A stretch of DNA of 64,000 nucleotides from Hoeflea sp. (lineage in GTDB: Bacteria > Pseudomonadota > Alphaproteobacteria > Rhizobiales > Rhizobiaceae): positions 62,001 to 126,000 of the forward strand of contig NZ_NVXQ01000001.1 of the NCBI RefSeq assembly GCF_002733955.1. Direction: 5' to 3'. Below are positions 2,006-25,226 of this stretch, in pieces (the first letter of the stretch is position 1; the number at the start of each line of letters is the position of its first letter). Below the pieces are notes generated by a model. It was not told the DNA's origin. It ran no database searches and saw nothing but the letters and a program-made list of their open reading frames with translations. The position numbers were made by a program, and so were the translations under genes.

Positions 2006-2611
2006 GTGCTGAATCAACAAGCTCGTTCGACAGATCCAGTTGATGAAACCGATCAGTCTCGGGTCAATGTCTACAGGCTTCTGGCACGGCTTCTGCGCGA
2101 ACCGCCCGACGCATCTCTCATTTCCATTCTGACCCAGATGACAGGCGACGAGTCTGAACTCGGCACGGCGATTGCCGATCTCTCGAACGCTGCGGCCAGC
2201 ATGAGCCTGGCCGAGGCGCGCGATGAGTACGACGTTTTGTTCATCGGCCTCGGCCGTGGCATTCTGACGCCTTTCGGTTCCTACTATCTTACGGGTTTCA
2301 TGCACGAAAAGCCCCTCGCGCGCTTGCGCGACGACATGCGTCCGCTGGGCATTGCCCGCAGCGACGATGTCAAGGATCCCGAGGATCACGCGGCCGCATT
2401 GATGGAAATGATGGCAGGTCTGATCGACGGCACTTTTGGTGCAGTGCAGCCACTGTCCGTGCAGAAGTCATTCTTCGACAGCCATGTCGGCAGCTGGACG
2501 CCGCATTTTTTCAAGGATCTCGAGACCTGTTCGTCGGCACGGTTTTTTAAACCTGTTGGCCGCATAGGTCGTCTGTTCATGGCAATCGAGCAAGGTGCGT
2601 TCGAGATGTAG
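2006..2611 (+). CDS. TorD/DmsD-family maturation chaperone for formate dehydrogenase
   Basis: A 201-residue, probably all-helical cytoplasmic protein of the TorD family, the chaperones that hold a molybdoenzyme and its Tat signal until cofactor insertion is complete. Family features visible are an N-terminal RVNVYRLLARLLREPP segment, a DEYDVLFIGLGRG segment and a C-terminal helix ending in FMAIEQGAFEM. The start is the GTG at 2006, with an AAGGGAGAA ribosome site at 1992-2000. An ATG two bases earlier (2004) opens only a two-codon frame that ends at TGA, so it cannot encode this product. As first gene of the FDH operon, followed by the Tat-dependent catalytic subunit, its client is most likely FdhA. 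Confidence 0.85.
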   Translation: MLNQQARSTDPVDETDQSRVNVYRLLARLLREPPDASLISILTQMTGDESELGTAIADLSNAAASMSLAEARDEYDVLFIGLGRGILTPFGSYYLTGFMHEKPLARLRDDMRPLGIARSDDVKDPEDHAAALMEMMAGLIDGTFGAVQPLSVQKSFFDSHVGSWTPHFFKDLETCSSARFFKPVGRIGRLFMAIEQGAFEM

Positions 2612-2715
2612 GCCGCCCTTGCGGTGAGTGTTTGTACAAGGTGTATCGCAGTCCGGAAAAGACGCCCGGCCAGACTGCAGAAAACGGTTAGAGGCGTCGA
2701 GAAGTGGAGACGAAA

Positions 2716-2913
2716 ATGAAGGCTAAGACCGAAGACGTCACGACCGACCGTCGCGGTTTTCTGAAATTCGCCGGGCTGGGCACAGTTGCCGGCGGCGCGG
2801 CTCTTGTCGCAGGCGGCGAAAGCCAGGCTGTCGAACTTGCCGAACCTGCGGGTGACGCCGGCTACCGGGAAACCGACCACATCAAGGCCTACTACGCCAG
2901 CACACGGTTTTAG
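2716..2913 (+). CDS. Small Tat-signal protein of formate dehydrogenase loci
   Basis: A 65-residue protein with a twin-arginine motif DRRGFLKFAG near the N-terminus, then a hydrophobic Gly/Ala-rich segment and a short polar tail. Such tiny proteins between a TorD-like chaperone and fdhA are known as formate dehydrogenase region Tat targets; their function is unestablished. The ATG at 2716 is preferred because GGAG lies 7 bases upstream; an in-frame GTG at 2704 would add four residues. The stop is 81 bases before fdhA, with which it probably shares a transcript. It may be a periplasmic assembly partner or a Tat escort for the iron-sulfur subunit. Confidence 0.75.
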   Translation: MKAKTEDVTTDRRGFLKFAGLGTVAGGAALVAGGESQAVELAEPAGDAGYRETDHIKAYYASTRF

Positions 2914-2994
2914 GGCCACATCTGCCAGCACGCGGTTCTGAGGAGAATCCTTGCTGATCGTCATGGAGACGAATTAAACCCAACGGAGGATACT

Positions 2995-5976
2995 ATGCTC
3001 AGGAAGAAGACAAATGGGGTTGCGCGAGGCCCCCGGCTGTCCTCGACGGTAGCAGAGCACGGAGTGACCGCGATCGATCGCCGGACATTCCTCAAGCGTT
3101 CGGGTCTCACCATCGGTGGGGCTGCGGCCATTTCCACGCTTTCGGGCGGAATGGTCAAACGCGCGGAAGCTCAGACAGCCGCAGGCACCGCAGACGTCGT
3201 GACCCGGAAATCGGTCTGCACCCACTGCTCGGTCGGCTGCACGGTAATTGCAGAAGTCGAAAACGGTGTCTGGACCCGTCAGGCTCCTGGCTATGATTCT
3301 CCCTTCAACATCGGCGCCCATTGCGCCAAGGGCGCGTCGGTCCGCGAGCATGCGCATGGCGACCGCCGTTTGAAGTACCCGATGAAGCTGGTCGGCGGAA
3401 AGTGGCAGCGCGTCTCCTGGGACGATGCCATCAACGAGATCGGCGACAAGATGCTTGAGGTGCGTGAGACCTCCGGACCGGATTCGGTCTACTGGCTCGG
3501 TTCCGCCAAGCACTCCAATGAACAGGCTTATCTGTTCCGCAAATTCGCGGCCTACTGGGGGACAAACAACGTCGACCACCAGGCCCGCATCTGCCATTCG
3601 ACCACGGTCTCCGGTGTTGCCAACACCTGGGGCTACGGCGCGATGACCAACTCCTACAACGATATCCACAATGCCAGGTCGATGATCCTGATCGGATCGA
3701 ACCCGGCTGAGGCACATCCGGTGTCGTTGCTGCATCTTCTCAAGTGCAAGGAAGAGAACAATGCACCGCTGATCGTCTGCGATCCGCGTTTTACCCGCAC
3801 GGCCGCGCATGCCGACGAGTTCGTCCGCTTCCGTCCGGGAAGCGACGTGGCGCTGATCTGGGGCATTCTCTACCACGTGTTCGAGAACGGCTGGGAAGAC
3901 AAGGAATACATTTCCTCCCGTGTCTGGGGCATGGACCAGATCCGTGAAGAAGTGAAGAAATGGAACCCGGCGGAAGTCGAGCGTGTGACCGGCGTGCCTG
4001 GCTCGCAGCTCGAGCGGGTGGCCCGTACGCTGGCTGAAAATCGTCCCGGCACCCTGATCTGGTGCATGGGCGGAACCCAGCACACCAACGGATCGTCCAA
4101 CACCCGCGCCTATTCGATCCTGCAGCTGGCACTTGGCAATATCGGCAAGAGCGGCGGTGGCGCCAACATCTTCCGCGGTCATGACAATGTGCAGGGCGCG
4201 ACCGATCTGGGCGTGCTCGCCGATACGCTGCCGGGCTATTTCGGCCTGACCGCGGGCGCCTACGCTCACTGGGCGCGCGTCTGGGGTGAAGACCTCGATT
4301 GGCTCAAGGGCCGTTTTGCCACCATGAAAGGCAAGGACGGAAAGAACAAGTTGATGATGAACGAGACCGGTATTCCGGTGTCGCGCTGGATCGACGGTGT
4401 TCTCGAAGCCAAGGACAATCTCGAGCAGCCCGACAACACCAAGGTCATGGTGTTCTGGGGCCATGCGCCGAACTCGCAAACCCGCCTGCCGGAAATGCAG
4501 AAGGCCATGGGAATGCTCGACCTGCTGGTCGTGGTCGACCCCTATCCGACCATGACCGCGGTGCTCCAGGACCGCCAGGATGGCGTCTACCTGCTGCCGG
4601 CCTCGACCCAGTTCGAGACCTACGGTTCGGTAACGGCGTCCAACCGGTCGATCCAATGGCGTGAGGCGGTGGTTGATCCGCTGTTCGAATCGCTGCCTGA
4701 CCACACCATCATGTACAAGTTCGCCAAGAAGTTCGGTTTTGAGGATCGTCTGTTCCGCAACATCGAGGTCAATGGCGAAGAGCCGCTGGTCGAGGACATC
4801 ACCCGCGAGTGGAACCGTGGCATGTGGACCATCGGCATGACCGGGCAGTCGCCCGAGCGGTTGAAGTCTCACATGGAGAACCAGCACACTTTCGACAAGA
4901 CCACCCTGCGTGGTGTCGGCGGGCCGCATGACGGGGAATTTTATGGTTTGCCCTGGCCGTGTTGGGGAACACCGGAGATGAAGCACACCGGTTCGGCCAA
5001 CCTCTACGACGTCTCGACTCCCGTCGCCCAGGGCGGCATGGGCTTCCGTGCCCGTTTTGGCGTCGAGCGCAATGGCGACAACCTGCTGGCCGAAAACAGC
5101 TGGCCGGTTGGCTCAGAGATCGAGGACGGTTATCCCGAGTTCACCATGGCCATGCTCAAGGGGCTTGGCTGGGACAAGGATCTGACTGCTTACGAGCGCA
5201 GGATGATCGAATATGTCGCAGGCATCCTCAAGGATCGCCCGAACGAGGAAGAGGTCGGCGAGACCTCGCACCAGGGCGATATCCCGTCCGACTATGACGA
5301 CAAGGTTGGAGGCGTGAACTGGAAGGTTGATCTTTCCGGCGGCATCCAGCGTGTTGCCATCAAGCACGGCTGCGCGCCCTACGGCAACGCCAAGGCCCGC
5401 GCCGTGGTCTGGACCTTCCCCGATCCGGTGCCGCTGCATCGCGAACCGCTCTACGCGCCAAATCGCGAACTCGTGGCCGACTATCCGACGATCGCCGACA
5501 AGACCTTCTGGCGTGTGCCGACGGCCTTCAAGTCGATCCAGGACGTCGATCATTCCAAGGACTTCCCGCTGGTCATGACCTCCGGGCGTCTGGTCGAATA
5601 TGAAGGCGGCGGCGATGAAACCCGCTCCAACCCTTGGCTGGCCGAGCTGCAGCAGGAGATGTTCGTCGAGATCAACACCTTCGACGCCAACAATCTTGGC
5701 ATCCGGGACCGTGAAGCGGTCTGGCTGCACAGCCCGTCCGGCGCCAAGATCAAGGTGATGGCGATGCTGACCGAACGGGTTGGCAGAGGTGTTGTCTTCT
5801 GTCCGTTCCACTTCGGCGGGCAGTTCCAGGGTGTGGACCAGAGAGACAAGTATCCTGAAGGGGCTGATCCGATCGTGCTTGGGGAAGCGTGCAACACCGC
5901 GCAGACCTACGGCTACGACATGGTCACGCAAATGCAGGAAACCAAAACCACGCTTTGCCGCATCGAGCGGGCATAG
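2995..5976 (+). CDS. fdhA: Formate dehydrogenase catalytic (alpha) subunit, Mo/W-bisMGD
   Basis: The 993-residue catalytic subunit oxidises formate to CO2. Residues 29-38 form a twin-arginine signal (RRTFLKRSGL), so the folded enzyme is exported to the periplasm. Cys75, Cys78, Cys82 and Cys110 bind the N-terminal [4Fe-4S] cluster. The metal ligand is Cys200, followed by the catalytic His201 (RICHSTTVSG), so this is a cysteine and not a selenocysteine enzyme. The C-terminal part (after about 850) is the molydopterin dinucleotide-binding domain. The downstream fdhB starts 14 bases after the stop. The length and the partner subunits match the Fdh3-type membrane-bound enzymes of proteobacteria. 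A tungstate transporter in the same island leaves open whether the metal is Mo or W. Confidence 0.95.
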   Translation: MLRKKTNGVARGPRLSSTVAEHGVTAIDRRTFLKRSGLTIGGAAAISTLSGGMVKRAEAQTAAGTADVVTRKSVCTHCSVGCTVIAEVENGVWTRQAPGYDSPFNIGAHCAKGASVREHAHGDRRLKYPMKLVGGKWQRVSWDDAINEIGDKMLEVRETSGPDSVYWLGSAKHSNEQAYLFRKFAAYWGTNNVDHQARICHSTTVSGVANTWGYGAMTNSYNDIHNARSMILIGSNPAEAHPVSLLHLLKCKEENNAPLIVCDPRFTRTAAHADEFVRFRPGSDVALIWGILYHVFENGWEDKEYISSRVWGMDQIREEVKKWNPAEVERVTGVPGSQLERVARTLAENRPGTLIWCMGGTQHTNGSSNTRAYSILQLALGNIGKSGGGANIFRGHDNVQGATDLGVLADTLPGYFGLTAGAYAHWARVWGEDLDWLKGRFATMKGKDGKNKLMMNETGIPVSRWIDGVLEAKDNLEQPDNTKVMVFWGHAPNSQTRLPEMQKAMGMLDLLVVVDPYPTMTAVLQDRQDGVYLLPASTQFETYGSVTASNRSIQWREAVVDPLFESLPDHTIMYKFAKKFGFEDRLFRNIEVNGEEPLVEDITREWNRGMWTIGMTGQSPERLKSHMENQHTFDKTTLRGVGGPHDGEFYGLPWPCWGTPEMKHTGSANLYDVSTPVAQGGMGFRARFGVERNGDNLLAENSWPVGSEIEDGYPEFTMAMLKGLGWDKDLTAYERRMIEYVAGILKDRPNEEEVGETSHQGDIPSDYDDKVGGVNWKVDLSGGIQRVAIKHGCAPYGNAKARAVVWTFPDPVPLHREPLYAPNRELVADYPTIADKTFWRVPTAFKSIQDVDHSKDFPLVMTSGRLVEYEGGGDETRSNPWLAELQQEMFVEINTFDANNLGIRDREAVWLHSPSGAKIKVMAMLTERVGRGVVFCPFHFGGQFQGVDQRDKYPEGADPIVLGEACNTAQTYGYDMVTQMQETKTTLCRIERA

Positions 5977-5990
5977 GGAGGATATACAAT

Positions 5991-6584
5991 ATGGCTAGAA
6001 TGAAATTCCTCTGCGACGCTGAACGCTGCATCGAGTGCAACGCCTGTGTCACCGCCTGCAAGAACGAGAACGAAGTGCCGTGGGGCGTGAACCGCCGTCG
6101 CGTCGTCACCATCAATGACGGCAAGCCCGGTGAACGCTCGATCTCGGTCGCCTGCATGCACTGCTCTGACGCGCCGTGCATGGCGGTCTGCCCGGTCGAT
6201 TGTTTCTACCAGACGGCGGACGGCATCGTGCTGCACGACAAGGATCTGTGCATCGGTTGCGGCTATTGCTTCTATGCGTGCCCCTTCGGCGCGCCGCAAT
6301 TCCCGCAGGCGTCGAACTTCGGCTCCCGCGGCAAGATGGACAAGTGCACCTTCTGTGCCGGCGGTCCGGAAGAAGACACCTCCGCCGCCGAGTTCCAGAA
6401 ATACGGCCGCAACCGCATTGCGGAAGGCAAGCTGCCGCTGTGTGCCGAGATGTGCTCGACCAAGGCTCTGCTGGCCGGAGACGGCGACACGGTTTCGCAG
6501 ATCTACCGCGAACGTATCGTTGCACGCGGCTTCGGTGCTGGAGCCTGGGGCTGGGGTACAGCCTACGAGCAGAAGGGCGGTTGA
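5991..6584 (+). CDS. fdhB: Formate dehydrogenase iron-sulfur (beta) subunit, Fdh3B type
   Basis: A 197-residue ferredoxin-like electron-transfer subunit carrying electrons from FdhA to the cytochrome b subunit. Four cysteine sets are visible: CIECNACVTAC (13-23), then CMHCSDAPCMAVCPVDC, CIGCGYCFYACP, and CTFC with later cysteines, consistent with four [4Fe-4S] clusters. It has no Tat signal, so it should be exported by hitch-hiking with FdhA. It also lacks the C-terminal transmembrane helix of E. coli FdnH, as is usual for the Fdh3 type. The ATG at 5991 follows a GGGAGG site at 5976-5981; an upstream in-frame extension overlapping fdhA is rejected on that basis. Confidence 0.93.
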   Translation: MARMKFLCDAERCIECNACVTACKNENEVPWGVNRRRVVTINDGKPGERSISVACMHCSDAPCMAVCPVDCFYQTADGIVLHDKDLCIGCGYCFYACPFGAPQFPQASNFGSRGKMDKCTFCAGGPEEDTSAAEFQKYGRNRIAEGKLPLCAEMCSTKALLAGDGDTVSQIYRERIVARGFGAGAWGWGTAYEQKGG

Positions 6585-6601
6585 TCGGCGTTCGCCCATC
6601 A

Positions 6602-6642
6602 CAGCCAGACCGGCCGGCGGGAGCATTCTTGCCGGTCGGCTG
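6602..6642 (+). promoter_or_regulatory. Hairpin between fdhB and fdhC
   Basis: In the 97-base gap CAGCC-A-GACCGGC (6602-6614) pairs with GCCGGTC-GGCTG (6631-6642), 12 pairs with one bulge. No T-run follows, so it is not a classical terminator. It may set the subunit ratio or protect mRNA. Confidence 0.4.
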
Positions 6643-6681
6643 GTGGTCGCCAGATCGTATCCGGACACCGGGAGTTCACCG

Positions 6682-7839
6682 ATGAAACATCTCACGACGC
6701 GCCGCGCGTCTGCGCGATACCTCCTACCCGGCATCGCTTTTGCGCTCTTGTTTCTTGCCGGGCTGCTGCTGCCGCTCGAGGCCAATGCCCAGAGCTCGGT
6801 TCGCCCACCTGAAGATGCCACGACCTCGATCGCGCCGCCCGGACCGCCCTTGCAGGGCGGGGTTCAGGGCACCGAATCGGATGCCGATATCTGGCGTGAT
6901 ATCCGTCAGGGTGAGGTGGGTTATGTGCCGATCCCCGACAAGTCGGCCGGGCTGATGATCCAGTCGCAGGGCGAAGACTGGCGGCTTTATCGCAACGGCC
7001 CGATGAATGATTACCTGGGCTACGCCATGCTGGCCACGATTGTGTTGCTGGCGCTGTTCTTTGCCATTCGCGGCCGCATCAAGGTCGAGCACGGAATGTC
7101 AGGGATCAAGATCAAGCGCTTCTCCACCCTTGAGCGGATGAGCCATTGGCTGATGGCGCTGTCCTTCATCACACTCGGAATCAGTGGCCTCAACTTCACC
7201 TTCGGCCGCTCGTTCGTCTTGCCTGTCATCGGCAAGGACCTGTTCGGCCCCTTGTCCGGCTTTCTCAAGGCCACGCACAATTACACCGCCTTTGCCTTCA
7301 TGGTCGGCCTCGTTCTCGCCTTTGTGCTCTGGATCGTCCACAACATCCCTGACCGGACCGATCTCAACTGGCTGGCCAAGGGCGGCGGACTGATCGGCAA
7401 GTCGAACCATCCGCCGGCGAGGAAGTTCAATGCCGGCCAGAAGCTTATCTTCTGGGGCGTGATGCTTCTCGGCCTGTCGGTGTCGGTCTCGGGCTGGGCT
7501 TTGCTGTTTCCTTTCGAGCACCACCTGTTTACCAGCACCTTCGCGCTTCTGGGCAATATCGGTATCGATGTTCCGGCCATTCTCGGCCTGCCGGAGCCGC
7601 CTTACACCGCCATTCAGGAGCAGCAGTTCAACAGCGCCTGGCATGGTATCATTGCAGTCGTGATGATCTGTCTGGTCCTCGCCCATATCTATATCGGCAC
7701 CATCGGGATGCAGGGCGCCTACGATGCCATGGGCTCGGGAGAGGTCGACCTCAACTGGGCGCGGGAACACCATTCCCTGTGGGTTGAGGAAGTCATGGCT
7801 AAGAAGACCGAGCGGTCTTCACCCGCGCCGGCCGAGTGA
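6682..7839 (+). CDS. fdhC: Formate dehydrogenase cytochrome b (gamma) subunit
   Basis: A 385-residue membrane subunit that passes electrons from FdhB to the quinone pool. Residues 12-36 form a cleavable signal or first helix ending in ANAQ. About five further hydrophobic helices follow (roughly 113-130, 155-172, 200-220, 254-276 and 320-340). Candidate haem b ligands are His155 (RMSHW), His199 (ATHNY), His321 (SAWHG) and His335 (LAHIY), the pattern of the FdnI/FdoI family. The extra N-terminal periplasmic domain (about 37-110) is typical of Fdh3-type gamma subunits. The start at 6682 has GGGAG about 8 bases upstream. Confidence 0.92.
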   Translation: MKHLTTRRASARYLLPGIAFALLFLAGLLLPLEANAQSSVRPPEDATTSIAPPGPPLQGGVQGTESDADIWRDIRQGEVGYVPIPDKSAGLMIQSQGEDWRLYRNGPMNDYLGYAMLATIVLLALFFAIRGRIKVEHGMSGIKIKRFSTLERMSHWLMALSFITLGISGLNFTFGRSFVLPVIGKDLFGPLSGFLKATHNYTAFAFMVGLVLAFVLWIVHNIPDRTDLNWLAKGGGLIGKSNHPPARKFNAGQKLIFWGVMLLGLSVSVSGWALLFPFEHHLFTSTFALLGNIGIDVPAILGLPEPPYTAIQEQQFNSAWHGIIAVVMICLVLAHIYIGTIGMQGAYDAMGSGEVDLNWAREHHSLWVEEVMAKKTERSSPAPAE

Positions 7840-7857
7840 GACGGGAAGGAAGAGACC

Positions 7858-7986
7858 ATGAAAGCATTTCTTCTCAGCATTGCAGTTTTGCTGCTGATTG
7901 TCGCCGGAGCCCGGTTTGGCCTCAAGCCGCTGTGGGAAACCCCGTCGGCGGTGGCTTATTCGACAGATAATGTGCGCCTCCACTGA
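7858..7986 (+). CDS. 42-residue single-helix membrane peptide at the end of fdhABC
   Basis: ATG at 7858 opens a 42-codon frame ending at TGA 7984-7986. An AGGAAGAG site lies just upstream (7846-7853), and the start is only 18 bases after the fdhC stop. The product has one hydrophobic helix (about residues 4-18, FLLSIAVLLLIVAGA) and a short polar tail ending VRLH. I do not recognise a named family. Its size, spacing and ribosome site suggest a real accessory peptide, perhaps an assembly or stability factor for the cytochrome b subunit. It is easily missed by gene callers. Confidence 0.65.
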   Translation: MKAFLLSIAVLLLIVAGARFGLKPLWETPSAVAYSTDNVRLH

Positions 7987-8055
7987 TAGGCTTTACCCGG
8001 CCGCGGGCACAGGGTGCTTTTCGGCCGTACCGGCCCCGGAAATGAAAGTGACACA

Positions 8056-8247
8056 ATGAGCGACGAAACCTTCAACCTGTCGATGCGCAAATTCCTCAAG
8101 CAAGTGGGCGTCACGTCGCAGCAGCAGATCGAGGAGCTGGTGCGCTCGGGCGCCGCGGGCAGCGGCCCGTTGAAGCTCAAGATGGTGCTGACAGCCGAGG
8201 GCACCGATATGCATCATGTCGTGACCGGCGAAGTCGAGTTGCCCTGA
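8056..8247 (+). CDS. DUF6494 family protein
   Basis: A 63-residue soluble protein beginning MSDETFNLSMRKFLKQVGVT, the signature of the DUF6494 family. A helix-rich N-terminal half (RKFLKQVGVTSQQQIEELVR) resembles a small helix-turn-helix or adaptor fold. The C-terminal half (LKLKMVLTAEG...VTGEVELP) looks like a beta hairpin. The start at 8056 is chosen because conservation begins there; a longer frame from 8014 has no good ribosome site. It lies 69 bases after the membrane peptide and 8 before the next gene. Function unknown; the context implies a role in FDH assembly. Confidence 0.75.
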   Translation: MSDETFNLSMRKFLKQVGVTSQQQIEELVRSGAAGSGPLKLKMVLTAEGTDMHHVVTGEVELP

Positions 8248-8255
8248 CCGGAAAC

Positions 8256-8990
8256 ATGCTGCCCGATCCCGAATTTCCGCCCCTGTTGACGGGGCATGCG
8301 GTGCCTGCTTCGCAAGACCCGTTGATCGTTGCGCTTGAGCGCATGCGCGAAGCCAGGCTCGAAGCCGGCGATCTGTTCTGGTCGATGGCGGAAACCCACG
8401 CCCGTGCCGCGATCGCTCTCGAGCCAGACTGCAGCCTGGGCAAGGCACTGCAGATGGTGCCGCTGCTTATGGTTGCCATCGGCGATGCGCTGGGTGCCAT
8501 CGGACCGCCCAATCTGGCGCTGATGTATCGATGGCCGCAGACATTGCTCGTCAATGGTGGCGAGGTTGGCGATGTGTTCCTGCACGCGCCTGATGGCATC
8601 GGGCTTGAAGAAACACCCGACTTCATGGTTCTGGGGTTCTCGATTGCGATGAGCCTGCCGCCCGAAATCATCGACGCGCCGGGACTGACGAGCCATGCCA
8701 CCGCGCTGTTTGAAGAGGGTTGCGGTGATCTTGACCGGACCCAGGTGATCGAAGCGGTGGCCCGGCATTTCCTGTCCTGGGTCGATACCTGGGAACATGA
8801 CGGTTTTGCCGCAGCCCACGCCGATTTTCACGGCCGCATGCAACCGGCGGACACCATCGCGGTTCAGATCGGGCCAGTGACACATGAAGGCCGGATGATC
8901 GGCATAGATGAAGATGGCGGCCTGCTGTTGAAAGGCACTGACGGTGCCCACGGCCTGTCGCTGGCGCAAGGATTGGGGATGGCCGAGTGA
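8256..8990 (+). CDS. Biotin/lipoate protein ligase-like protein, probably catalytically degenerate
   Basis: A 244-residue protein with the overall fold signature of the BPL/LplA/LipB family followed by a C-terminal SH3-like part (about 205-244, MIGIDEDGGLLLKG). The adenylation motifs are missing. The position equivalent to KWPND reads RWPQT, and where BirA has its catalytic Lys this protein has NGGEVGD. The glycine-rich GRGR loop is also absent. It is thus unlikely to attach biotin or lipoate and more likely binds a protein or cofactor. Its stop overlaps the start of the next gene (GTGA), so the two are translationally coupled. Homologues of this type are recorded as ligase-family proteins in alphaproteobacteria without proven activity. 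Confidence 0.7.
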   Translation: MLPDPEFPPLLTGHAVPASQDPLIVALERMREARLEAGDLFWSMAETHARAAIALEPDCSLGKALQMVPLLMVAIGDALGAIGPPNLALMYRWPQTLLVNGGEVGDVFLHAPDGIGLEETPDFMVLGFSIAMSLPPEIIDAPGLTSHATALFEEGCGDLDRTQVIEAVARHFLSWVDTWEHDGFAAAHADFHGRMQPADTIAVQIGPVTHEGRMIGIDEDGGLLLKGTDGAHGLSLAQGLGMAE

Positions 8991-10009
8991 CATCGACGAA
9001 TGACAGGGTAAGGGGCGTGATCTGGAAATCCGCCGGACAGCATCTCACCCACAGGCTCGACAATGGTTGGCTTGCGGTGAGCGGGGATTTCCTGCGCGCC
9101 TATTACACAAGGCCCGAGATCCATCCGGTCGAGGAAAGCTGTGCGGTCGAGCATGCACTGTTCGAACGGTTGATGGCCGACCCGTTTGCGCCGGTCAGCG
9201 CCGAGGAACTGGCCAAGATTGCCGATCCGGATGCGGCGGAAAACTATGCCGTGGTACTGCGGTTTCGCGACCACCTGGTCGCCAAGGGGTCGATAGAGGC
9301 CGCCTATGCTTCGCTGTTTACCCCCGGCGCGCCGCTGGTCCCACCGGTGTTCATCAGCCAGATGGCGCATCTGATCATGGGCAACATCCTGATGGGCGAA
9401 ACCGATGCGATGGTGGCGCGCGGGGCTGAGCTGTTCTTCCGGGAGCAGACCGCCACCACATCAAACGAGCGGATGATGCTCGCCGATGCCGAGGTTGTGG
9501 AAACCCGCGCCCAGCAGACCGCGCTTTTGGCTCTGAGCGATCCCCGCCGCACCGAAGTCGACCTCGAAATCCTCAACGCCGAAGGCGCGGAAGACTACTG
9601 GGCTCGCGCCGACCGGTTTGATCTGGCGCTCGATTTCCGCTTTGCCGAGCCGGGGCAGGATGCCTTTGCCCGGCTGATCGAACGCTGGATCAGGCATTTC
9701 CTCGACATGCGGGTCCGGGTGCAGCCACTGCAGTCGGTCAAGGATCAGCGCTGGTCGTGGCATGTCGGACTTGATGCGGAGGCAACCCGCATCCTCAACG
9801 CGCTCTATGAGGGCGAGTATCTGCCCGAGCAGGGGCAGGGCAGCATCGTTGCCTTGTTCCGGATGGAGTTTCTCGATTACGACCGGGTGGTGGAGAAGAT
9901 GCGCCGCAAGCCGGCCTTTCTCGGGCTGGCTGTCGATGCGCATGACCGCATTCGCATGAAGCCGCAAAATCTCCTGATCAACCTGCCGCTCAACCAGGTG
10001 CTCCAGTAG
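8987..10009 (+). CDS. DUF6352 family protein
   Basis: A 340-residue soluble protein recognised as DUF6352. The GTG start at 8987 overlaps the preceding TGA by 4 bases. No catalytic motif, signal peptide or membrane helix is evident. The N-terminal half is helical (LLFERLMADPFAPVSAEEL-like repeats near 50-80). The C-terminal half contains RWIRHFLDMRVRVQPL and WSWHVGLDAEATRILNAL, which may be a dimer interface. It is the last gene of the + strand FDH run. Function unknown; its place suggests a dedicated FDH maturation or quality-control factor. Confidence 0.75.
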   Translation: MTSTNDRVRGVIWKSAGQHLTHRLDNGWLAVSGDFLRAYYTRPEIHPVEESCAVEHALFERLMADPFAPVSAEELAKIADPDAAENYAVVLRFRDHLVAKGSIEAAYASLFTPGAPLVPPVFISQMAHLIMGNILMGETDAMVARGAELFFREQTATTSNERMMLADAEVVETRAQQTALLALSDPRRTEVDLEILNAEGAEDYWARADRFDLALDFRFAEPGQDAFARLIERWIRHFLDMRVRVQPLQSVKDQRWSWHVGLDAEATRILNALYEGEYLPEQGQGSIVALFRMEFLDYDRVVEKMRRKPAFLGLAVDAHDRIRMKPQNLLINLPLNQVLQ

Positions 10010-10115
10010 CGCCCAGCACCGTCGCCGGCTGTTTCGCCGGAAAAGCAGCACAAGGTTTCACCGCCCGGGATATGTCTCCCGGCCATCTGCGTCCGAAAAA
10101 AGGCTGCTGGAAGAG

Positions 10116-10379
10116 TTACTGGGACTCGACCGCAATGGCGGTGATCTTTCCAACGCCGCTGTCGCCTGCGGAATCGTACTCGATGGTGACCTTGTTTCCG
10201 GCGCTCAGGCCTTCGGGCACGAGGTCACCTGCCGGCGCCAGATCCCAGACCGTCTTGTCATCGAGAACCAGGACATGATCGACCCGGTCATAGGCGACAA
10301 CCGTGCCTCCGGCGGTGTCCGCCAGAGCCGGTGTTGCGAGCATAGATCCAAGAAGTGCAAGAGCAGAAATCAGGCGCAT
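10116..10379 (-). CDS. Small secreted DUF1344 protein
   Basis: An 87-residue protein with a Sec signal (MRLISALALLGSMLATPALA) and a mature part of about 66 residues that should form a small beta barrel (GGTVVAYDRVDHVLVLDD, then GNKVTIEYDS). This is the DUF1344 pattern of Rhizobiales. The start at 10379 is preferred because a GGAGGA site lies 5 bases upstream; an ATG 12 bases earlier is in frame but falls before that site. It lies between two FDH-linked transcription units but faces the minus direction. Nothing ties it directly to formate metabolism. Confidence 0.7.
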   Translation of the reverse strand: MRLISALALLGSMLATPALADTAGGTVVAYDRVDHVLVLDDKTVWDLAPAGDLVPEGLSAGNKVTIEYDSAGDSGVGKITAIAVESQ

Positions 10380-10490
10380 GCGATCCTCCATACGACGTGT
10401 TGCCGCATAGCTATGCGCCTGTCCTGTCATTCCCGCAAGAGCCTTTGTCAGCCATGCAAACCGCGCTGCAAAGACCGGGCATCAACGCCG

Positions 10491-12521
10491 TTATTTATCG
10501 CTGAGGAAATCCTCCACCGTCAGACCCTGGCGGCCGGCCTCCAGATAGTCGTCGGTGGTGCGGGTGCGGCGCTTGTTCGCAATGGCAAAGGGGTCCGCCC
10601 CGTCGCGCGACAGCGATTCGAGCCGGCAGTCCTCGCACATGTGGATCAGGGCCCGTCGCTCCTCGCTGTCAAACATCCAGTTGCCCTCGAGCCGCCGCTC
10701 CACCGCCCGCAGCATGCCGCCGGCAGCAAAAGCCTTGCCGCAGGAGGTGCAGCAGGCCGGTTCGTCCTCATGCAGAGTGACAGGCTGCATCACGGCCGGT
10801 GACAGATTGTAGCGCGGCTCAAGGCTTATCGCTGATTCCGGGCAGGTCGATTCGCAGATGCCGCACTGGACACAGGCCGCTTCGACAAAGCGCAATTGCG
10901 GAGAGCCGGGTGTGTCGCGCAGCGCATCGGCCGGGCACGAGGATGTGCAGGCCATGCACAGCGTGCAGGCTTCCGTGTCCACCAGCACTGTTCCGTAAGG
11001 GGCGCTGCCGGAAAGCGGGAGGATGCCGGAAACGGGTGTACCGGCATCGGCCAGCACACCGAGTGCGGCGCGCGCGACTTCCCGCTTGCCGCCAAAGGGC
11101 GTGGGGGCGGCGCGTGTGAGTTCCGGCAGGTCGGGCAGGGCGTAAAGCGCGGATTCCACCTGATCCGGATCGGCTTCGAGCAAAGTCACGATCCGTCCGC
11201 CGCTATGGCCGAAGCCCGACAGCAGGGTTTCCATCAACTGGCTTTCTTCTGCGACCGCACTGAACTCCTCCGCCTTGTGCGGATCCCCGAGCACCACGAT
11301 CTGGCGGAACCCGGCGGCCAGCGCCGCTGCCATCACATCGTGGCCGATGCCGCTGGTCGCATGCATCTCCAGCGGAATGACCCTTGCCGGCAGGCCGCGG
11401 CCGAATCGCGCCATGGCTCCGATCAGAGGCGTGCCGTGGCTCGCATCATGCAGCAGCAGCACCGGCGCCTGGCCTTTCGCAGCGAGGTAGGTCCGGGCCA
11501 GCGTCTGGACCTTGAGGATCTGGTCGGTCCGTGTCGGATAGGCATAGGCTACCGCACCCGTCGGGCAATGGGCCGCGCAATTGCCGCAGCCGCCGCAGAT
11601 GCCAGGATCTATGGTGATGATGTCGCCCTGACCGGTGATCGCGCCGGCGGGGCACTGATCGATGCACTTGGTGCAGCCGGTTTTCCGCGACCGCTCATGG
11701 GCGCAGATCGAAGCGTCATAGGTAACATAAAGCGGCTTTTCGAAGCTGCCGACGTAATCCGAGGCCTCGATCACCGCTTCCAGGATGGCCACCGGATTGC
11801 CCGGATCGGCCCGGAAATAACCATCCCGGCCGTGGGCGCGCGTGAACAGCGCGGTCTCGCCGGAGATGTCGAAGATCACGCTGCAGCTGGTTTTCGCTCC
11901 GTCGCGGGGCATCGCAAAGTCCGGCTTCGCGCGCGACGATGGAAGCATCGCGGCGTAGCCGTCCACGACCAGCTCGAAGGCGCCAAGCGAACCGGTTGCA
12001 GAACTGACGCGCCCGGCGAAGATTGGAAACTCAAGCTCGGACGGCAGCACCAGATCGTCGACTGCACTGAGCAGCAAGGTCACCGACAAGCTCCGGTTGA
12101 GCCGTTGCGCTGCATCGAACGCGGCCTGGCCGGCCCCGATCACCAGGCACAGCCCGTCGCTCTCGATCGACCTCAGCCGCGCAGGCACCGTCGGCAGCTT
12201 GGCTGCAGTCAGCAGGGCTTCGATCTTCGGCGTCTTCGATGCGTTGTCAGCGGTCCAGCCCGCCATCTCCCGGATATTGACGAATGACAGGGCGTCATGG
12301 CCTGTTTCTGCAGCAATTTCCTCAAACAGCGGACGTTCCTGGGTGCAGGCAATGCAGATCGGTGATTCTGTGGCGAGCGCGGTCTCGAGCGCTCCCATTT
12401 CACTGCGGCAAAGCTGGGTGTGGCACGACACTTCGCCATAGGCTGACCCCAGTTTTGCGGGGTCTATGGACATGGTCTTCTCGCAGCTGCATACAAATAA
12501 CTTGGTTGCGTCTAAAACCAT
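10491..12521 (-). CDS. Multi-cluster 4Fe-4S protein with HdrA-like layout, FDH-associated
   Basis: About 676 residues, apparently cytoplasmic. In order: an N-terminal CxC (FVCSCEK) with more cysteines (CHTQLC, CIACTQ); a nucleotide-binding-like segment LVIGAGQAAFDAAQRL near 135; a first ferredoxin pair GCTKCIDQCP and GGCGNCAAHCP near 290-325; a Rossmann-like region; a second pair CTLCMACTSSCP and CVQCGICESTCP near 515-560; and C-terminal CTSCG and CEDC pairs. It should carry at least four [4Fe-4S] clusters plus zinc- or iron-type sites. The layout recalls HdrA/polyferredoxin proteins but lacks a clear full FAD domain. Start chosen at ATG 12521 (AAGGG upstream); a GTG at 12551 is the alternative. 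It diverges from DUF3305 and probably delivers electrons or clusters during FDH assembly. Confidence 0.75.
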   Translation of the reverse strand: MVLDATKLFVCSCEKTMSIDPAKLGSAYGEVSCHTQLCRSEMGALETALATESPICIACTQERPLFEEIAAETGHDALSFVNIREMAGWTADNASKTPKIEALLTAAKLPTVPARLRSIESDGLCLVIGAGQAAFDAAQRLNRSLSVTLLLSAVDDLVLPSELEFPIFAGRVSSATGSLGAFELVVDGYAAMLPSSRAKPDFAMPRDGAKTSCSVIFDISGETALFTRAHGRDGYFRADPGNPVAILEAVIEASDYVGSFEKPLYVTYDASICAHERSRKTGCTKCIDQCPAGAITGQGDIITIDPGICGGCGNCAAHCPTGAVAYAYPTRTDQILKVQTLARTYLAAKGQAPVLLLHDASHGTPLIGAMARFGRGLPARVIPLEMHATSGIGHDVMAAALAAGFRQIVVLGDPHKAEEFSAVAEESQLMETLLSGFGHSGGRIVTLLEADPDQVESALYALPDLPELTRAAPTPFGGKREVARAALGVLADAGTPVSGILPLSGSAPYGTVLVDTEACTLCMACTSSCPADALRDTPGSPQLRFVEAACVQCGICESTCPESAISLEPRYNLSPAVMQPVTLHEDEPACCTSCGKAFAAGGMLRAVERRLEGNWMFDSEERRALIHMCEDCRLESLSRDGADPFAIANKRRTRTTDDYLEAGRQGLTVEDFLSDK

Positions 12522-12596
12522 CTCAGCACCCTTGTTGTCGTCTGCAAACACCTTATACTTTCAACGGGAAGAGACAACCGTGATTGCCTCAAGACC

Positions 12597-13160
12597 GTGG
12601 AGGAACTGGCGGGCGTGTCGCGGGAACTGACAATTATGCTGGGAGTGATTGCCGAGAAGCGGCAATCGGTCTCACGCTGGGCAAAAGACTACTGGATGCC
12701 CGTCGGCGTGATGCTGGCGCCGGCCGACCTCAATGCGGGAGACATCCTGGTCAGCGATGACCGCATGACCCGCTACTACATGGGGCGGGTGGATCTCACC
12801 TGTTATGCCGCCGACACCGATGCCTATGTCGAGAATTTCGACAGCGGCAATCCCGCGCTCTATGTGGTGTTGCGGCGCGACAGCGAAAACGAGCACCCGC
12901 TCGACTGGTATGTCCAAAGCGTCACCGCCTCTCCGCACGCCGCCCAGGACTACGAGGTCGGCAGCGAAGACATCATCGAGCGCCTGCCGATGCCGCCGGA
13001 GATTGCCGAGGCAATCCTCGAGTTTCTCGACGCCTATCATGTCGAGACGCCCTTCCTGAAACGGCGGCGCGACAAGCTGGATCTAGAGGAACAGAAATTC
13101 GGCAAGCAGCCGATCTTTCTGAGCCGCAAGCGCTCGGACCGGGGAGACCTCGATGGCTGA
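12597..13160 (+). CDS. DUF3305 protein
   Basis: Up to 187 residues, recognised as DUF3305 from the N-terminal GVIAEKRQSVSRWAKDYW and PVGVMLAP segments. No membrane helix or catalytic motif is visible. The start is uncertain: GTG 12597, GTG 12618 and ATG 12636 are all in frame. The last begins just before the conserved segment and may be the true one. It overlaps the DUF3306 start by 8 bases, so the two are coupled. DUF3305/DUF3306 pairs are recurrent neighbours of formate dehydrogenase genes; their function is not established. It is transcribed divergently from the Fe-S protein across fewer than 80 bases. Confidence 0.75.
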   Translation: MEELAGVSRELTIMLGVIAEKRQSVSRWAKDYWMPVGVMLAPADLNAGDILVSDDRMTRYYMGRVDLTCYAADTDAYVENFDSGNPALYVVLRRDSENEHPLDWYVQSVTASPHAAQDYEVGSEDIIERLPMPPEIAEAILEFLDAYHVETPFLKRRRDKLDLEEQKFGKQPIFLSRKRSDRGDLDG

Positions 13161-13833
13161 CGAAAAAGAAGGGTTTCTCTCGCGCTGGTCAAAGCGCAAG
13201 CAGGCGCAATTGTCCAATCCGGATGTGGATCCCGACGATGGGGCGCCTGCGGCCGCACCGGTCGAGATCGATGAGGAGCAACTGGAAGCCGAGCGCAGTG
13301 AAGCCGAGGCCAACCGTCTGGCTGCCGAAGAGGTCGATCTGGAGAAGGTCGAATACGGTTTCGATTTCTCGATCTTCATGAAGCGCGGCGTGCCCGATGT
13401 CCTGCGCAAGAAGGCGCTGAAGAAATTCTTCAACTCCAACCCGGTTCTCGCCAATCTGGATGGCTTGAACGACTACGACGAGGATTTCAACAACCCGCTG
13501 CACATGGTCTACAAGTCGTCCTGGGACGTGGGCCGGGGTTTCCTGACGGAGGCGGAAAAGGTGCTGCAGCAGGCAACCGGACGTCTCACGCGCGATGAAC
13601 CGCTTCCTGACGCTGCCTCGACAGAGGTTCCCGAAGAGCTGGAAGCCGACGCGGCGGAAACGTCAGTTCCTGCTGGTGACGAGGCAAGCGCTGAGGCGGA
13701 TGCGGCCACCAACTCTGACGACCCTCAGGCCGAGGAGGCTCAGCCCCTCGATGCACAGCCGGAACCGGAAACCGCAGAGGTTGAACCGCCGCAACACAAG
13801 CGGGTGTCGATCAGGCAGCGGCTGAACGGATGA
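13153..13833 (+). CDS. DUF3306 protein
   Basis: A 226-residue acidic protein of family DUF3306. The opening EGFLSRWSKRKQ is the family hallmark. A folded core at about 60-140 contains DFSIFMKRGVPDVLRKKALK and FNNPLHMVYK. The last 80 residues are a low-complexity Glu/Ala/Pro-rich tail, probably disordered. It shares 8 bases with DUF3305, which implies stoichiometric synthesis. With its basic N-terminus and acidic tail it could act as a tether or assembly scaffold, but that is guesswork. Confidence 0.78.
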   Translation: MADEKEGFLSRWSKRKQAQLSNPDVDPDDGAPAAAPVEIDEEQLEAERSEAEANRLAAEEVDLEKVEYGFDFSIFMKRGVPDVLRKKALKKFFNSNPVLANLDGLNDYDEDFNNPLHMVYKSSWDVGRGFLTEAEKVLQQATGRLTRDEPLPDAASTEVPEELEADAAETSVPAGDEASAEADAATNSDDPQAEEAQPLDAQPEPETAEVEPPQHKRVSIRQRLNG

Positions 13834-13841
13834 TGCACGTG

Positions 13842-14087
13842 TCAGACGTTGGGGTCGGCCAGATGGTTGCGCAACATTTCGCTATAGGCTGCGGCCATCT
13901 CGTTCACGAAGGCTTCGTGATCGGCGACGTCGATCACGTTCTTGGCGACAAATGCGTTGTAGCGCGCTGCGCCATAAAGGAACGCCATGTGGATCTCAGT
14001 GGCGGGGATCTTGGCATTGGCCGTGTTGGCGGTGCGGACGAACCGATCGGCAAGCCTGACAAATTTTTCCGTTGCGGTGCTGTCCAT
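13842..14087 (-). CDS. DUF3144 protein
   Basis: An 81-residue soluble helical protein of family DUF3144. The core FVRLADRFVRTANTAN and FLYGAARYNAFVAKNV matches the family. It ends 8 bases from the convergent DUF3306 stop and starts about 100 bases before the divergent Mrp gene. No function is known for the family and nothing else in the sequence suggests one. Confidence 0.75.
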   Translation of the reverse strand: MDSTATEKFVRLADRFVRTANTANAKIPATEIHMAFLYGAARYNAFVAKNVIDVADHEAFVNEMAAAYSEMLRNHLADPNV

Positions 14088-14188
14088 CGCGGGTCTTCTC
14101 CATCACTCAATGACTGTCGAAGCGCCATGCCCGGATCCGAGACCGGAACCGGAATGAGAGCTGCGACAACTGGGGCGCACTATCGACC

Positions 14189-15343
14189 ATGGGGTACGCA
14201 GTGACAATCGCCATCGATCAGATTCTGGAACAACTCAAACGGGTCAAGGGGCCCGACCTGAGCGGCAATATTGTCGATCTCGGACTGGTTTCGGATATCG
14301 CAGCCAGCAATGATCAGGTCGCGTTCTCGATCACGGTTCCAGCCGATCGCGCCGCCCAGCTGGAGCCGTTACGCGCCGCAGCCGAAAAAGCGGCCCTGGC
14401 TGCGCCGGGCGTTGCCAAGGCGCTGGTCACGCTGACGGCGGACAGCAAGGAACAGCCCGCGCCCGTGCGCTCGGCACCGTCCATCGAGCAGGCCGCTGCG
14501 GTGCCTCCGCCGATGCAGAAACAGGCACCACAGCCGCAATCCGCGACCAGGGCTCCTGTGCCCGGGGTCGGGGCGATCATTGCCGTTGCCTCGGGTAAGG
14601 GCGGTGTCGGCAAATCCACCACGTCGGTCAACATCGCGCTCGGCCTACAGGCCCGCGGCCTCAAGGTCGGCATACTCGATGCCGACATCTACGGGCCGTC
14701 ACTGCCAAGGCTGCTCAATATCTCGGGCCGGCCACAAAGCGGCGGCGACCGCGTCCTCATCCCGCTTGAGGGCCATGGCCTGAAGGTGATGTCGATGGGG
14801 TTCATGGTCGACGAGGATACCGCCACGGTCTGGCGCGGGCCGATGATCATGCAGGCGCTGACCCAAATGCTGCGCGAAGTCGCCTGGGGCGAGCTCGATG
14901 TGCTGATCGTCGACATGCCGCCGGGCACCGGTGACGCCCAACTGACCATGGCGCAGAATGTGCCGCTGGCCGGCGCCGTGATCGTCTCGACGCCGCAGGA
15001 TCTGGCGCTGATCGATGCCCGCAAGGGGCTCAACATGTTTCGCAAGGTCGATGTGCCCATTCTCGGCATCATCGAGAACATGAGCTATTTCAGCTGTCCC
15101 GATTGCGATGGCCGGCATGCGATATTCGGCCATGGCGGCGCACGCGCGGAAGCCGAGCGCATTGGTGCGCCGTTTCTGGGCGAAGTCCCGCTGGTGATGC
15201 AGATCCGCGAGACATCCGACAGCGGCACCCCCATCGTGGTGTCCGATCCCGAAAGCGTTCAGGCCCAGATCTATCGCGACATTGCCGGGCTGATCTGGGA
15301 CCGGCTGACTGAAGAACGGATGCTGGCGGGAGGTCACGGTTAG
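14189..15343 (+). CDS. Mrp/NBP35-family Fe-S cluster carrier ATPase (ApbC-like)
   Basis: A 384-residue P-loop ATPase that carries and transfers [4Fe-4S] clusters. An N-terminal MIP18/DUF59 domain (about 1-80) is joined by an Ala/Pro/Gln linker to the ATPase domain. This has the deviant Walker A ASGKGGVGKST near 134, a switch segment DMPPGTGD, and the cluster-binding CPDC near 305. The start is ATG 14189; GTG 14201, four codons later, has an equally good GGGG upstream and cannot be excluded. The stop is 3 bases before tupB, so it appears to be the first gene of the tungstate operon. This placement suggests it loads Fe-S clusters for the FDH system rather than acting only as a housekeeping carrier. 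Confidence 0.88.
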   Translation: MGYAVTIAIDQILEQLKRVKGPDLSGNIVDLGLVSDIAASNDQVAFSITVPADRAAQLEPLRAAAEKAALAAPGVAKALVTLTADSKEQPAPVRSAPSIEQAAAVPPPMQKQAPQPQSATRAPVPGVGAIIAVASGKGGVGKSTTSVNIALGLQARGLKVGILDADIYGPSLPRLLNISGRPQSGGDRVLIPLEGHGLKVMSMGFMVDEDTATVWRGPMIMQALTQMLREVAWGELDVLIVDMPPGTGDAQLTMAQNVPLAGAVIVSTPQDLALIDARKGLNMFRKVDVPILGIIENMSYFSCPDCDGRHAIFGHGGARAEAERIGAPFLGEVPLVMQIRETSDSGTPIVVSDPESVQAQIYRDIAGLIWDRLTEERMLAGGHG

Positions 15344-15346: not shown

Positions 15347-16054
15347 ATGCAGGATTTCGCAGGTGCATTCGGGCTGGCATTCGGGCTGATCGCTTCGGGC
15401 GATCCGGACCTGTTCGAGATTGTCGGGCTGTCGATGCGCGTCAGCCTGACGGCGCTGCTGCTGTCTTGTCTCATCGGTTTTCCCATCGGCGCGCTGCTGG
15501 TGGTGCGAAAATTCTTTGGCCGCGGCATCGTTATTGCCCTTGTCAATTCGATGATGGGGTTCCCCCCGGTGGTGATCGGGCTTCTGGTCTACCTGGCGCT
15601 GTCGCGCGCCGGCCCGCTGGGCTGGCTTGGCCTGCTCTACAGTCCGACGGCGATGATCATTGCCCAGACCCTGCTGATCGCGCCGATTGTTGCCGCCCTG
15701 TCACGCCAGGTGCTCGAAGCCCTGCAGGCCGAGTATGACGAGCAGTTCCGCTCGCTCGGGGTTTCGCGCGGCTCCGCCATGCTGGCGCTGATCATCGACG
15801 GGCGTTACGGTCTTGTCACCGTCGCACTGGCAGGCTTTGGCCGCGCCGTGGCCGAGGTCGGAGCGGTGATCATTGTCGGCGGCAATATCGAACATCTGAC
15901 CCGGGTGATGACCACGGCGATTGCGCTCGAGACCTCGAAAGGCGACCTCGGAATGGCGCTGGCGCTCGGGATCATCCTGATGAGCATCGCTGTCTCGGTC
16001 AATCTCGGCGCAAGCGCGCTGCGGGCGGTGGCGGAAAGGCAGGCCTATGCCTGA
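15347..16054 (+). CDS. tupB: Tungstate ABC transporter permease
   Basis: A 235-residue inner-membrane permease with about five hydrophobic helices. The ATPase-coupling loop reads SLGVSRGSAMLALIIDG near 138-155, and the helix after it contains GFGRAVAEVGAVIIVGGN, characteristic of TupB/WtpB-type permeases for tungstate. It overlaps the ATPase gene by 8 bases and follows mrp by 3. Together with tupC and tupA it forms a complete high-affinity oxyanion importer; Tup proteins are known to prefer tungstate over molybdate. Confidence 0.88.
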   Translation: MQDFAGAFGLAFGLIASGDPDLFEIVGLSMRVSLTALLLSCLIGFPIGALLVVRKFFGRGIVIALVNSMMGFPPVVIGLLVYLALSRAGPLGWLGLLYSPTAMIIAQTLLIAPIVAALSRQVLEALQAEYDEQFRSLGVSRGSAMLALIIDGRYGLVTVALAGFGRAVAEVGAVIIVGGNIEHLTRVMTTAIALETSKGDLGMALALGIILMSIAVSVNLGASALRAVAERQAYA

Positions 16055-16832
16055 CGCCGCACCGATCGTCTCACCTGGAAAATCGGACAAGGGACCGCCG
16101 ACGCCGCGTGATCGTTTGTTGCCGGGTGCACTCCGGCTTGATGGCCTCACGCTGCAAGTCGCGGGGAAGACGCTGGTCGATATCGAGAAACTGTTGCTGG
16201 AACCGCGCTCCGTCACGGTGGTCATGGGTCCCAACGGCGCCGGCAAAAGCCTGTTCCTGCGCCTGGTCCACGGTTTGATCCCGCCGACCAGCGGCTGGGT
16301 CAGCTGGGGCGAGGTTGCCTGCGGTGAAGCCACCCGCTCGACCCAAGCCATGGTCTTCCAGAAGCCGGTGCTGCTGCGCCGCTCAGTGGCCGCCAACATC
16401 GATTTCGTGCTGCGCCACCGCGCGGGAACCAGGGCCGAACGCCGGTCGCGGTGCGAGGAATTGCTGGCCCGGGTCGGGCTTGCCGGCCAGGCCGAACAAC
16501 CGGCGCGGCTCCTCTCAGGAGGCGAGCAGCAGCGGCTGGCACTGGCGCGCGCCCTGGCGACACGCCCAAAGGTGTTGCTCCTCGATGAGCCGACAGCCAG
16601 CCTCGATCCGGCATCGGTTCAGATGATCGAGCAGATCGTGCTGGCAGCGAGTGCGGAAGAGACAAAGGTGATTTTCGTCACCCATGATGTGGGCCAGGCC
16701 CGACGGCTCGCCGATGACGTGGCGTTCCTGCATCACGGCCAACTGATCGAACATCGCCCGGCGGCCGAGTTTTTCACCAGCCCGGCATCCGAAGCTGCCA
16801 ATGCCTATCTGGCCGGACGTATCGTGCTTTGA
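16047..16832 (+). CDS. tupC: Tungstate ABC transporter ATP-binding protein
   Basis: A 261-residue ABC ATPase with Walker A GPNGAGKS, Q-loop in MVFQKPVLL, signature LSGGEQQR, Walker B VLLLDEPT and switch His in VTHD. It has no C-terminal TOBE/MOP domain of the ModC type, which agrees with a TupC assignment. The first 30 residues are a Pro/Lys-rich extension before the nucleotide-binding fold; the overlapping start inside tupB supports this reading. Confidence 0.88.
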   Translation: MPDAAPIVSPGKSDKGPPTPRDRLLPGALRLDGLTLQVAGKTLVDIEKLLLEPRSVTVVMGPNGAGKSLFLRLVHGLIPPTSGWVSWGEVACGEATRSTQAMVFQKPVLLRRSVAANIDFVLRHRAGTRAERRSRCEELLARVGLAGQAEQPARLLSGGEQQRLALARALATRPKVLLLDEPTASLDPASVQMIEQIVLAASAEETKVIFVTHDVGQARRLADDVAFLHHGQLIEHRPAAEFFTSPASEAANAYLAGRIVL

Positions 16833-16863
16833 GCTGAAGCTGAACCATATTGCAGAGGAAGAT

Positions 16864-25223: not shown

Positions 25224-25226
25224 ATC

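Follow-up and report, generated by a model that had tools for sequence, protein, structure and literature searches.

What do the conserved genes of unassigned role around an FDH3-type formate dehydrogenase (FDH) do? Molybdenum- and tungsten-dependent FDHs are sought for CO2 reduction and, to our knowledge, the way in which these complex enzymes acquire their clusters and sulfurated cofactor is still not fully known. The question was raised by 64,000 nucleotides of Hoeflea sp. (contig NZ_NVXQ01000001.1, positions 62,001 to 126,000; hereafter the window, to which coordinates refer unless another genome is named), in which family profile matches placed an FDH3-type enzyme and such genes at positions 2006–15343. 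The helper genes were found to be inherited together with FDH3 even when unlinked, and they probably form a dedicated maturation module for this membrane-anchored enzyme, which is predicted to be exported by the twin-arginine translocation (Tat) system. The near-invariant core of the set is DUF3305 (12597–13160, plus strand), DUF3306 (13153–13833, plus strand), and an iron-sulfur (Fe-S) protein of 686 residues (10491–12551, minus strand), a flavin-less, HdrA-derived polyferredoxin.

Co-occurrence was surveyed in 289 genomes drawn evenly from the class Alphaproteobacteria. Profile cut-offs were passed by the FDH3 beta subunit in 39 genomes, DUF3306 in 41, DUF6352 (8987–10009, plus strand) in 32, and DUF6494 in 46. 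DUF3306 shared 38 genomes with the FDH3 beta subunit (of 41 carriers and of 39 FDH3 genomes), and DUF6352 shared 29 (of 32 carriers). The DUF6352 carriers without FDH3 beta were G007 (93% complete, 810 contigs), G071 (82%), and G127 (74%); the last two are probably assembly gaps, because fdhA and the gene of a small Tat-signal protein flank DUF6352 there on a cut contig. PF16917 (BPL_LplA_LipB_2), the family of a biotin-ligase-like protein (8256–8990, plus strand), occurred in 190 of the 289 genomes. Scores of at least 100 bits, a threshold set after the scores were seen, were reached in 30 genomes, 27 with FDH3 and three without; in G087 and G226 the contig of this match differs from that of DUF6352 and fdhB.

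The polyferredoxin was sought at E 1e-60 in 72 chosen genomes (39 FDH3 genomes, 29 controls, and four doubtful cases). It was present in 39 of 39 FDH3 genomes, 0 of 29 controls, and two of the four doubtful genomes (G071 and G125; not G007 or G127). The match covered part of the profile in G075 and G286, and the gene contained two internal stops in G064 and one in G125. In G125 the stretch C3:108826–113064 has kept DUF3306 and the interrupted polyferredoxin, with no FDH3 beta above cut-off and no match to formate_TAT, the family of the small Tat protein; it looks like a decaying FDH3 locus.

Kinship was controlled for by family. Ten families that have DUF6352 include genomes with and without FDH3, and in all ten the two are present or absent together in each genome sampled (the within-family chances multiply to 8.6e-5; G255, which lacks both genes, is only 63% complete). 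Nor did the association depend on position. On a single chromosome of G028, fdhB lies at 1.27 Mb, DUF6352 at 1.55 Mb, and DUF6505, a further family met in relatives, at 1.65 Mb (98–378 kb apart), and in G233 fdhB and DUF6352 are separated by 0.58 Mb. In G051, G105, G128, G159, and G236 the two genes occupy separate contigs and would lie more than 80 kb apart even if these were joined the nearest way. At seven loci no other helper gene was near DUF6352. Scattered helpers are thus still co-inherited, so that linkage is not required; mere neighbours would not behave in this way. Two FDH3 beta genes each were found in G159 (C26, C27) and G184 (C88, C2), and in the fetched stretches a fuller helper set lay near only one gene of each pair.

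Four invariant cysteines of the polyferredoxin form a set at the N-terminus; the others make up two paired [4Fe-4S] motifs (2x[4Fe-4S] modules) and a C-terminal CxxC..CxxC. Together these could perhaps serve five or six metal sites. When a profile of its first 256 positions was compared with the PDB, HdrA chains took the top three places (E 2.5e-6 to 3.3e-5), the alignments covering roughly the first 190 of those positions. Single members barely show this kinship (1 of 22 at E 0.08), the score against HdrA2 lies below the HdrA cut-off (59.2 vs. 1100 bits), and the GxGxxG flavin glycines of HdrA are absent from the family alignments. By profile comparison, the N-terminal part of the polyferredoxin is thus homologous to HdrA without its flavin glycines, a relationship that is new here. 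With HdrA of heterodisulfide reductase it shares the N-terminal domain, the start of the flavin domain, and ferredoxin modules; it differs in the missing GxGxxG, an extra ferredoxin module, and the CxxC..CxxC tail, and other Hdr subunits are absent among the genes named at this locus. An MvhD-like middle domain was considered and is not claimed (one weak Pfam match in 24 members, no PDB match).

The biotin-ligase-like protein (PF16917, 196.2 bits vs. gathering 27) is likewise related to a known enzyme. Positions 1–240 of the 246 in its profile aligned with PDB 3bfm, a “biotin protein ligase-like protein of unknown function,” at E 1.4e-56, and BirA was matched at about 1e-11. Ligase activity was judged by two motifs, which we take to be the G[RK]GRxG nucleotide/biotin loop (GRGRRG-type) and the lysine of KWPND. 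Neither the loop nor a lysine before the WP/FP motif was present in any of 19 members. As judged by these motifs, the protein has the fold of a biotin ligase without the ligase motifs, also a new observation: the fold family and the WP motif are shared with BirA-type ligases and 3bfm, and BirA differs from all 19 members in having the loop and the lysine.

DUF6352 (PF19879, 261.7 bits) was modelled with high confidence (pLDDT 92.9, pTM 0.91), and a model was also obtained for DUF3305 (PF11749, 107.6 bits; pLDDT 88.2). Neither model matched a PDB chain at E 0.001 in a fold search run without a positive-control model, and other Pfam families matched at most one of 31 DUF6352 members. The confident DUF6352 model without a match is a further new observation, and the predicted fold may be new; a new fold is not claimed, the search having had no positive control. 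No distant similarity was detected by hhalign among the families of DUF6352, DUF3305, the ligase-like protein, the polyferredoxin, the TorD-like protein, DUF3306 (PF11748, 72.6 bits), and DUF6494, and DUF6505 was rejected as a relative of DUF6352. A MobA-DUF3305 fusion was considered as a clue to function and dismissed. NF011058 is named for one, and its C-terminal part aligns to DUF3305, but at E 1e-70 no fusion members were found in 249 genomes, an uninformative result since controls gave no match either.

The enzyme itself is encoded by three plus-strand genes. FdhA (2995–5976, one open frame) is the molybdopterin/[4Fe-4S] catalytic subunit; a twin-arginine (RR) leader was seen by eye, and a cysteine is present at what is presumably the position where some FDHs carry selenocysteine. 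FdhB (5991–6584) passes the cut-off of the FDH3 beta subunit (NF038355, 349.6 vs. 240 bits), and FdhC (6682–7839), the cytochrome b or gamma subunit, matches PF01292 and passes TIGR01583 (152 vs. 115.85 bits). FDH-N and FDH-O of Escherichia coli, which are served by FdhD and FdhE, are among the closest known systems: they too are exported by Tat, contain Fe-S and cytochrome b subunits, and use FdhD. The system in the window differs in its FDH3 beta subunit, in an FdhA well under the FDH-N alpha equivalog cut-off (TIGR01553, 329.2 vs. 814.2 bits), which places it outside FDH-N, and in the lack of FdhE from FDH3 genomes described below.

Upstream of fdhA lie a TorD-like chaperone (2006–2611, plus strand), which also adjoins FDH3 in relatives and belongs to the wider family PF02613 (95.8 bits vs. 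gathering 22.2) while scoring under the TorD equivalog NF003442 (48.5 vs. 132 bits), and the 69-residue formate_TAT protein (2704–2913, plus strand; TIGR02811, 58.9 bits, cut-off 48.45), whose RR leader is supported by a TIGR01409 match. At E 0.001 formate_TAT was matched in 39 of 39 FDH3 genomes (weakly and partially in G064), above cut-off in 20 of them, and weakly in three of seven controls. After fdhC the plus strand continues with a 42-residue single-span membrane peptide (P42; 7858–7986, hydropathy 2.37), DUF6494 (8056–8247; PF20104, 96 bits), the ligase-like gene, and DUF6352. These are followed by the polyferredoxin on the other strand, DUF3305, DUF3306, an 81-residue DUF3144 protein (13842–14087, minus strand; PF11342, 45.9 bits), and an Mrp/ApbC-type Fe-S carrier (14189–15343, plus strand; PF10609, 342.6 bits), which falls just under the ApbC equivalog cut-off (343.1 vs. 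348). Beyond Mrp stand the permease, ATPase, and binding protein of a tungstate-type ABC importer (15347–17682, plus strand), which is called Tup-like only because TupA (237.1 vs. 400 bits) and TupB (159 vs. 320 bits) lie under the TupABC equivalog cut-offs, and then MoeA, MobB, and FdhD (17683–21060, minus strand; family matches), for cofactor synthesis and sulfuration. A preliminary description of the window had reported an fdhABC island with uncharacterised proteins and overlapping genes. All the genes that it named are present and match their families, and coordinates confirm overlaps of 4 bp between the ligase-like gene and DUF6352 and of 8 bp between DUF3305 and DUF3306. Its outline of the island needed revision: the DUF6494 start was moved to 8056, and the island runs on through Mrp and the Tup-like importer.

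The same description had called the system undescribed, which is too strong. In passages of Bay et al. (2015; PMC4464133), DUF3305/DUF3306 adjoin 60% of dmsD-fdhGHI operons, ferredoxins adjoin 43% of TorD-fdh operons, and the legend of an operon figure includes a 4Fe-4S protein and a Tat protein; the latter is, moreover, a curated NCBIfam family. Part of the set was therefore known, namely DUF3305/DUF3306, the Tat protein, and ferredoxins beside fdh operons, and these dmsD- or TorD-linked operons resemble the present locus in that respect. They differ in that those passages neither assign the helpers a role nor mention a relationship to HdrA. The text of PMC4464133 contains neither DUF6352 nor DUF6494, and no FDH-related literature was found by title among openly licensed PMC papers for DUF6505, DUF4444, 3BFM, TIGR02811, or PF16917.

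The nearest named contig was that of Hoeflea sp. BRH_c9 (L062; DUF6352 89% identical), and 14 of 15 genes tested had a counterpart there with ratios of nonsynonymous to synonymous substitution (dN/dS) of 0.018–0.238, including P42 (0.148) and DUF3144 (0.111). These 14 genes are under purifying selection. Comparison with three less closely related contigs gave higher ratios (reaching 0.48 for FdhC), and in one of the three, L063 (Allgaiera), P42 and DUF3144 were not found. The fifteenth gene tested, a small minus-strand open reading frame (ORF) at 10116–10385, was rejected as an island gene, having no match in L062 or L066, weak partial matches in L063 and L069, and no Pfam family.

Of the DUF6352 loci, which number at least 581, the best 80 were mapped. 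The order TorD-Tat-fdhABC-peptide-DUF6494-ligase-like-DUF6352-Fe-S-DUF3305-DUF3306 is largely retained in Stappia, Aurantimonas, Fulvimarina, Oricola, Nitratireductor, and Roseibium. The ligase-like gene was a neighbour at 57 of the 80 loci, FdhB at 46, and DUF3306 and the Fe-S protein at 42 each, all lower bounds because contig ends cut many loci. A DUF3144 homologue was present at 23 and Mrp at 12, and Mrp also occurs in the Alloyangia cluster. Among 47 named loci with FdhC, 29 had P42-like ORFs, 24 on the same strand as FdhC and five on the opposite one. Of the 24, 21 sit 1.0–1.5 kb past FdhC, and 19 have a match to a WD40-cytochrome in between. The P42 profile also picks up stray membrane segments, and these counts rest on dN/dS, shuffle, and strand and hydropathy checks; a 42-residue match in Alloyangia had a score reached by none of 10,000 shuffles. 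Annotated plasmids (Sinorhizobium meliloti pB and Bradyrhizobium sp. 184) carry the order ligase-like-DUF6505-DUF6352-DUF3305-DUF3306-TorD-Tat-fdhABC. In Alloyangia, DUF6505 follows the ligase-like gene with no DUF6352 annotated there, and DUF6494 and Mrp lie between the Fe-S and ligase-like genes. The helper module is thus larger than what the window shows: DUF6505 and a WD40-cytochrome c join it in relatives and not here, which is likewise a new observation.

This WD40-cytochrome c, in which a cytochrome c is fused to a WD40 beta-propeller, adjoins FdhC on an Alloyangia pacifica plasmid (L162:3225–4520). Among the 39 FDH3 genomes, 29 had a relative of it, as against none of 21 controls. No more than 15 kb separated the match from fdhB in 26 of these 29, and five of the matches were confined to the cytochrome part. 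It is likely the electron acceptor of FDH3 in these relatives. None was found in the Hoeflea genome at E 1e-20, so that electrons there probably pass directly to quinone. In the window, and likewise in Nitratireductor and Hoeflea BRH_c9, P42 comes straight after FdhC, an arrangement suggestive of loss of the cytochrome.

Where the helpers would act bears on what they do. RR leaders were recognised in FdhA and the small Tat protein; inspection by eye showed none in the polyferredoxin, DUF6352, the ligase-like protein, DUF3305, or DUF3306. Across 148 aligned members of those five families, hydropathy near the N-terminus never peaked above 1.6, and a membrane-span peak was absent from all 37 DUF3305 and all 37 DUF3306 members. 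Proteins that lack a leader are expected to encounter FdhA before it is exported. This speaks for a part in maturation more than for electron transfer by the finished enzyme, and the adjoining cofactor genes (MoeA, MobB, and FdhD) were counted on the same side. In the proposed sequence of events, the TorD-like protein would hold the FdhA leader while, still in the cytoplasm, DUF3305, DUF3306, and the polyferredoxin complete the loading of cofactor and clusters. Reductive loading of the W/Mo centre, or its sulfuration, might draw low-potential electrons from the polyferredoxin, and Mrp could feed in Fe-S clusters. The dead biotin-ligase-like protein and DUF6352, with DUF6505 in relatives, may constitute an accessory hand-over or holdase sub-module. 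After loading, Tat would export FdhAB, and FdhC, P42, and the small Tat protein would complete the membrane complex. A bolder version, which we entertain as a possibility short of even chances, is a previously unrecognised class of Mo/W-enzyme maturase, an FdhE-independent machine built largely of retired enzymes: a flavin-less HdrA feeding low-potential electrons or Fe-S to nascent FdhA, a dead biotin ligase as cofactor or peptide holder, and DUF6352 with its maybe-new fold. The short list of co-inherited, role-less helpers provides a testable set for heterologous FDH3 production and for the question of FdhE-free maturation.

Several observations weigh against a dedicated maturation module, or limit it. 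Of the 39 FDH3 genomes, 10 lack DUF6352 and 16 lack DUF6505. Five carry DUF6505 without DUF6352 and another five carry neither, so that neither gene is generally essential. The preliminary description had proposed a dedicated helper set, a proposal that families occurring mostly without fdhABC would contradict. Carriers without FDH3 beta were few for DUF3306 (3 of 41), DUF6352 (3 of 32), the ligase-like protein at 100 bits or more (3 of 30), and the polyferredoxin (2 of 41, among the 72 chosen genomes), and the proposal holds for these. DUF6494 has to be dropped from the dedicated set: 26 of its 46 carriers have FDH3 beta and 20 do not, G071 and G127 among the latter probably having the enzyme on a cut contig. 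The exclusion of leaders rests on inspection by eye, since the hydropathy measure stays below 1.6 on both genuine Tat leaders and thus cannot exclude leaders on the helpers. DUF3305 and DUF3306 are termed putative membrane proteins in a passage of PMC4464133, in conflict with the hydropathy found here. FdhE (PF04216) was found in none of the 39 FDH3 genomes (the E. coli control was positive) and in two of 12 genomes without FDH3, so that its absence is not special to FDH3 carriers. Because most genomes without FDH3 also lack it, the counts suggest that FDH3 does not need FdhE, and not that the module replaced it. They disagree with a passage of PMC4464133 that places FdhD/E in trans in nearly all TorD-fdh species, a disagreement that may stem from counting FdhD and FdhE together. 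Finally, the helper roles are putative, and a multi-cluster ferredoxin could equally carry electrons for the working enzyme.

This last point leads to an unlikely alternative, in which the polyferredoxin and the DUF proteins are an HdrA-like cytoplasmic electron-transfer branch of the working enzyme, through which ferredoxin or some other carrier in the cytoplasm is coupled to the oxidation of formate or the reduction of CO2. Homology to HdrA, the many cysteine sets, and the constant presence of the polyferredoxin in FDH3 genomes would all suit such a branch. The RR leader of FdhA and the usual cytochrome b FdhC, however, put the active site outside, the HdrA flavin glycines are lost, and relatives carry a cytochrome c near FdhC. 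Of the two, assembly is the reading that we favour from sequence.

Less probable still is a general Mo/W-enzyme or Fe-S maturation kit that stands beside fdhABC by chance. Mrp, MoeA, MobB, and FdhD, which we take to be general factors, lie in the same stretch, and DUF6494 is widespread without FDH3; the idea was already weakened by the rarity of DUF3306, DUF6352, and the polyferredoxin outside FDH3 genomes. Passive linkage through joint transfer, with no functional tie, could draw on the FDH3 clusters found on megaplasmids in several lineages, but co-inheritance persists for scattered genes and within families, and the 14 genes are under purifying selection. As a general account it is very improbable. 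It is effectively refuted for DUF6352 and the polyferredoxin and is still possible for DUF6494 and DUF3144.

DUF6505 and DUF6494 also occur apart from the enzyme. DUF6505 was above cut-off in 23 of the 39 FDH3 genomes, in G127, and in one control, and was not above it in the Hoeflea genome. The control, G281 (C118:40126–40575), is 97% complete and has no FDH3 beta, an exception to the association. Neighbourhoods of DUF6494 were fetched for 18 of the 20 genomes without FDH3 beta and for two loci from FDH3 genomes; without FDH3 its neighbours, as judged by eye, were often sdhAB, mdh, recG, or ccm homologues. In three genomes of one family (G008, G142, and G241) DUF6494 lies within about 2 kb of Tup-importer profile matches, and because of these nearby genes a looser tie to W/Mo uptake is possible. 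L142, L149, and L154 are among the loci of DUF6494 in genomes that lack FDH3, which include small ones (1.4 Mb).

Elsewhere in the window, an iron-type uptake cluster stands beside the FDH region at 21948–27441, comprising a TonB-dependent receptor, a PKHD-type hydroxylase, ExbB, ExbD, and TonB. At the far end (60001–64000), the G+C content drops from about 0.61 to 0.53–0.54.

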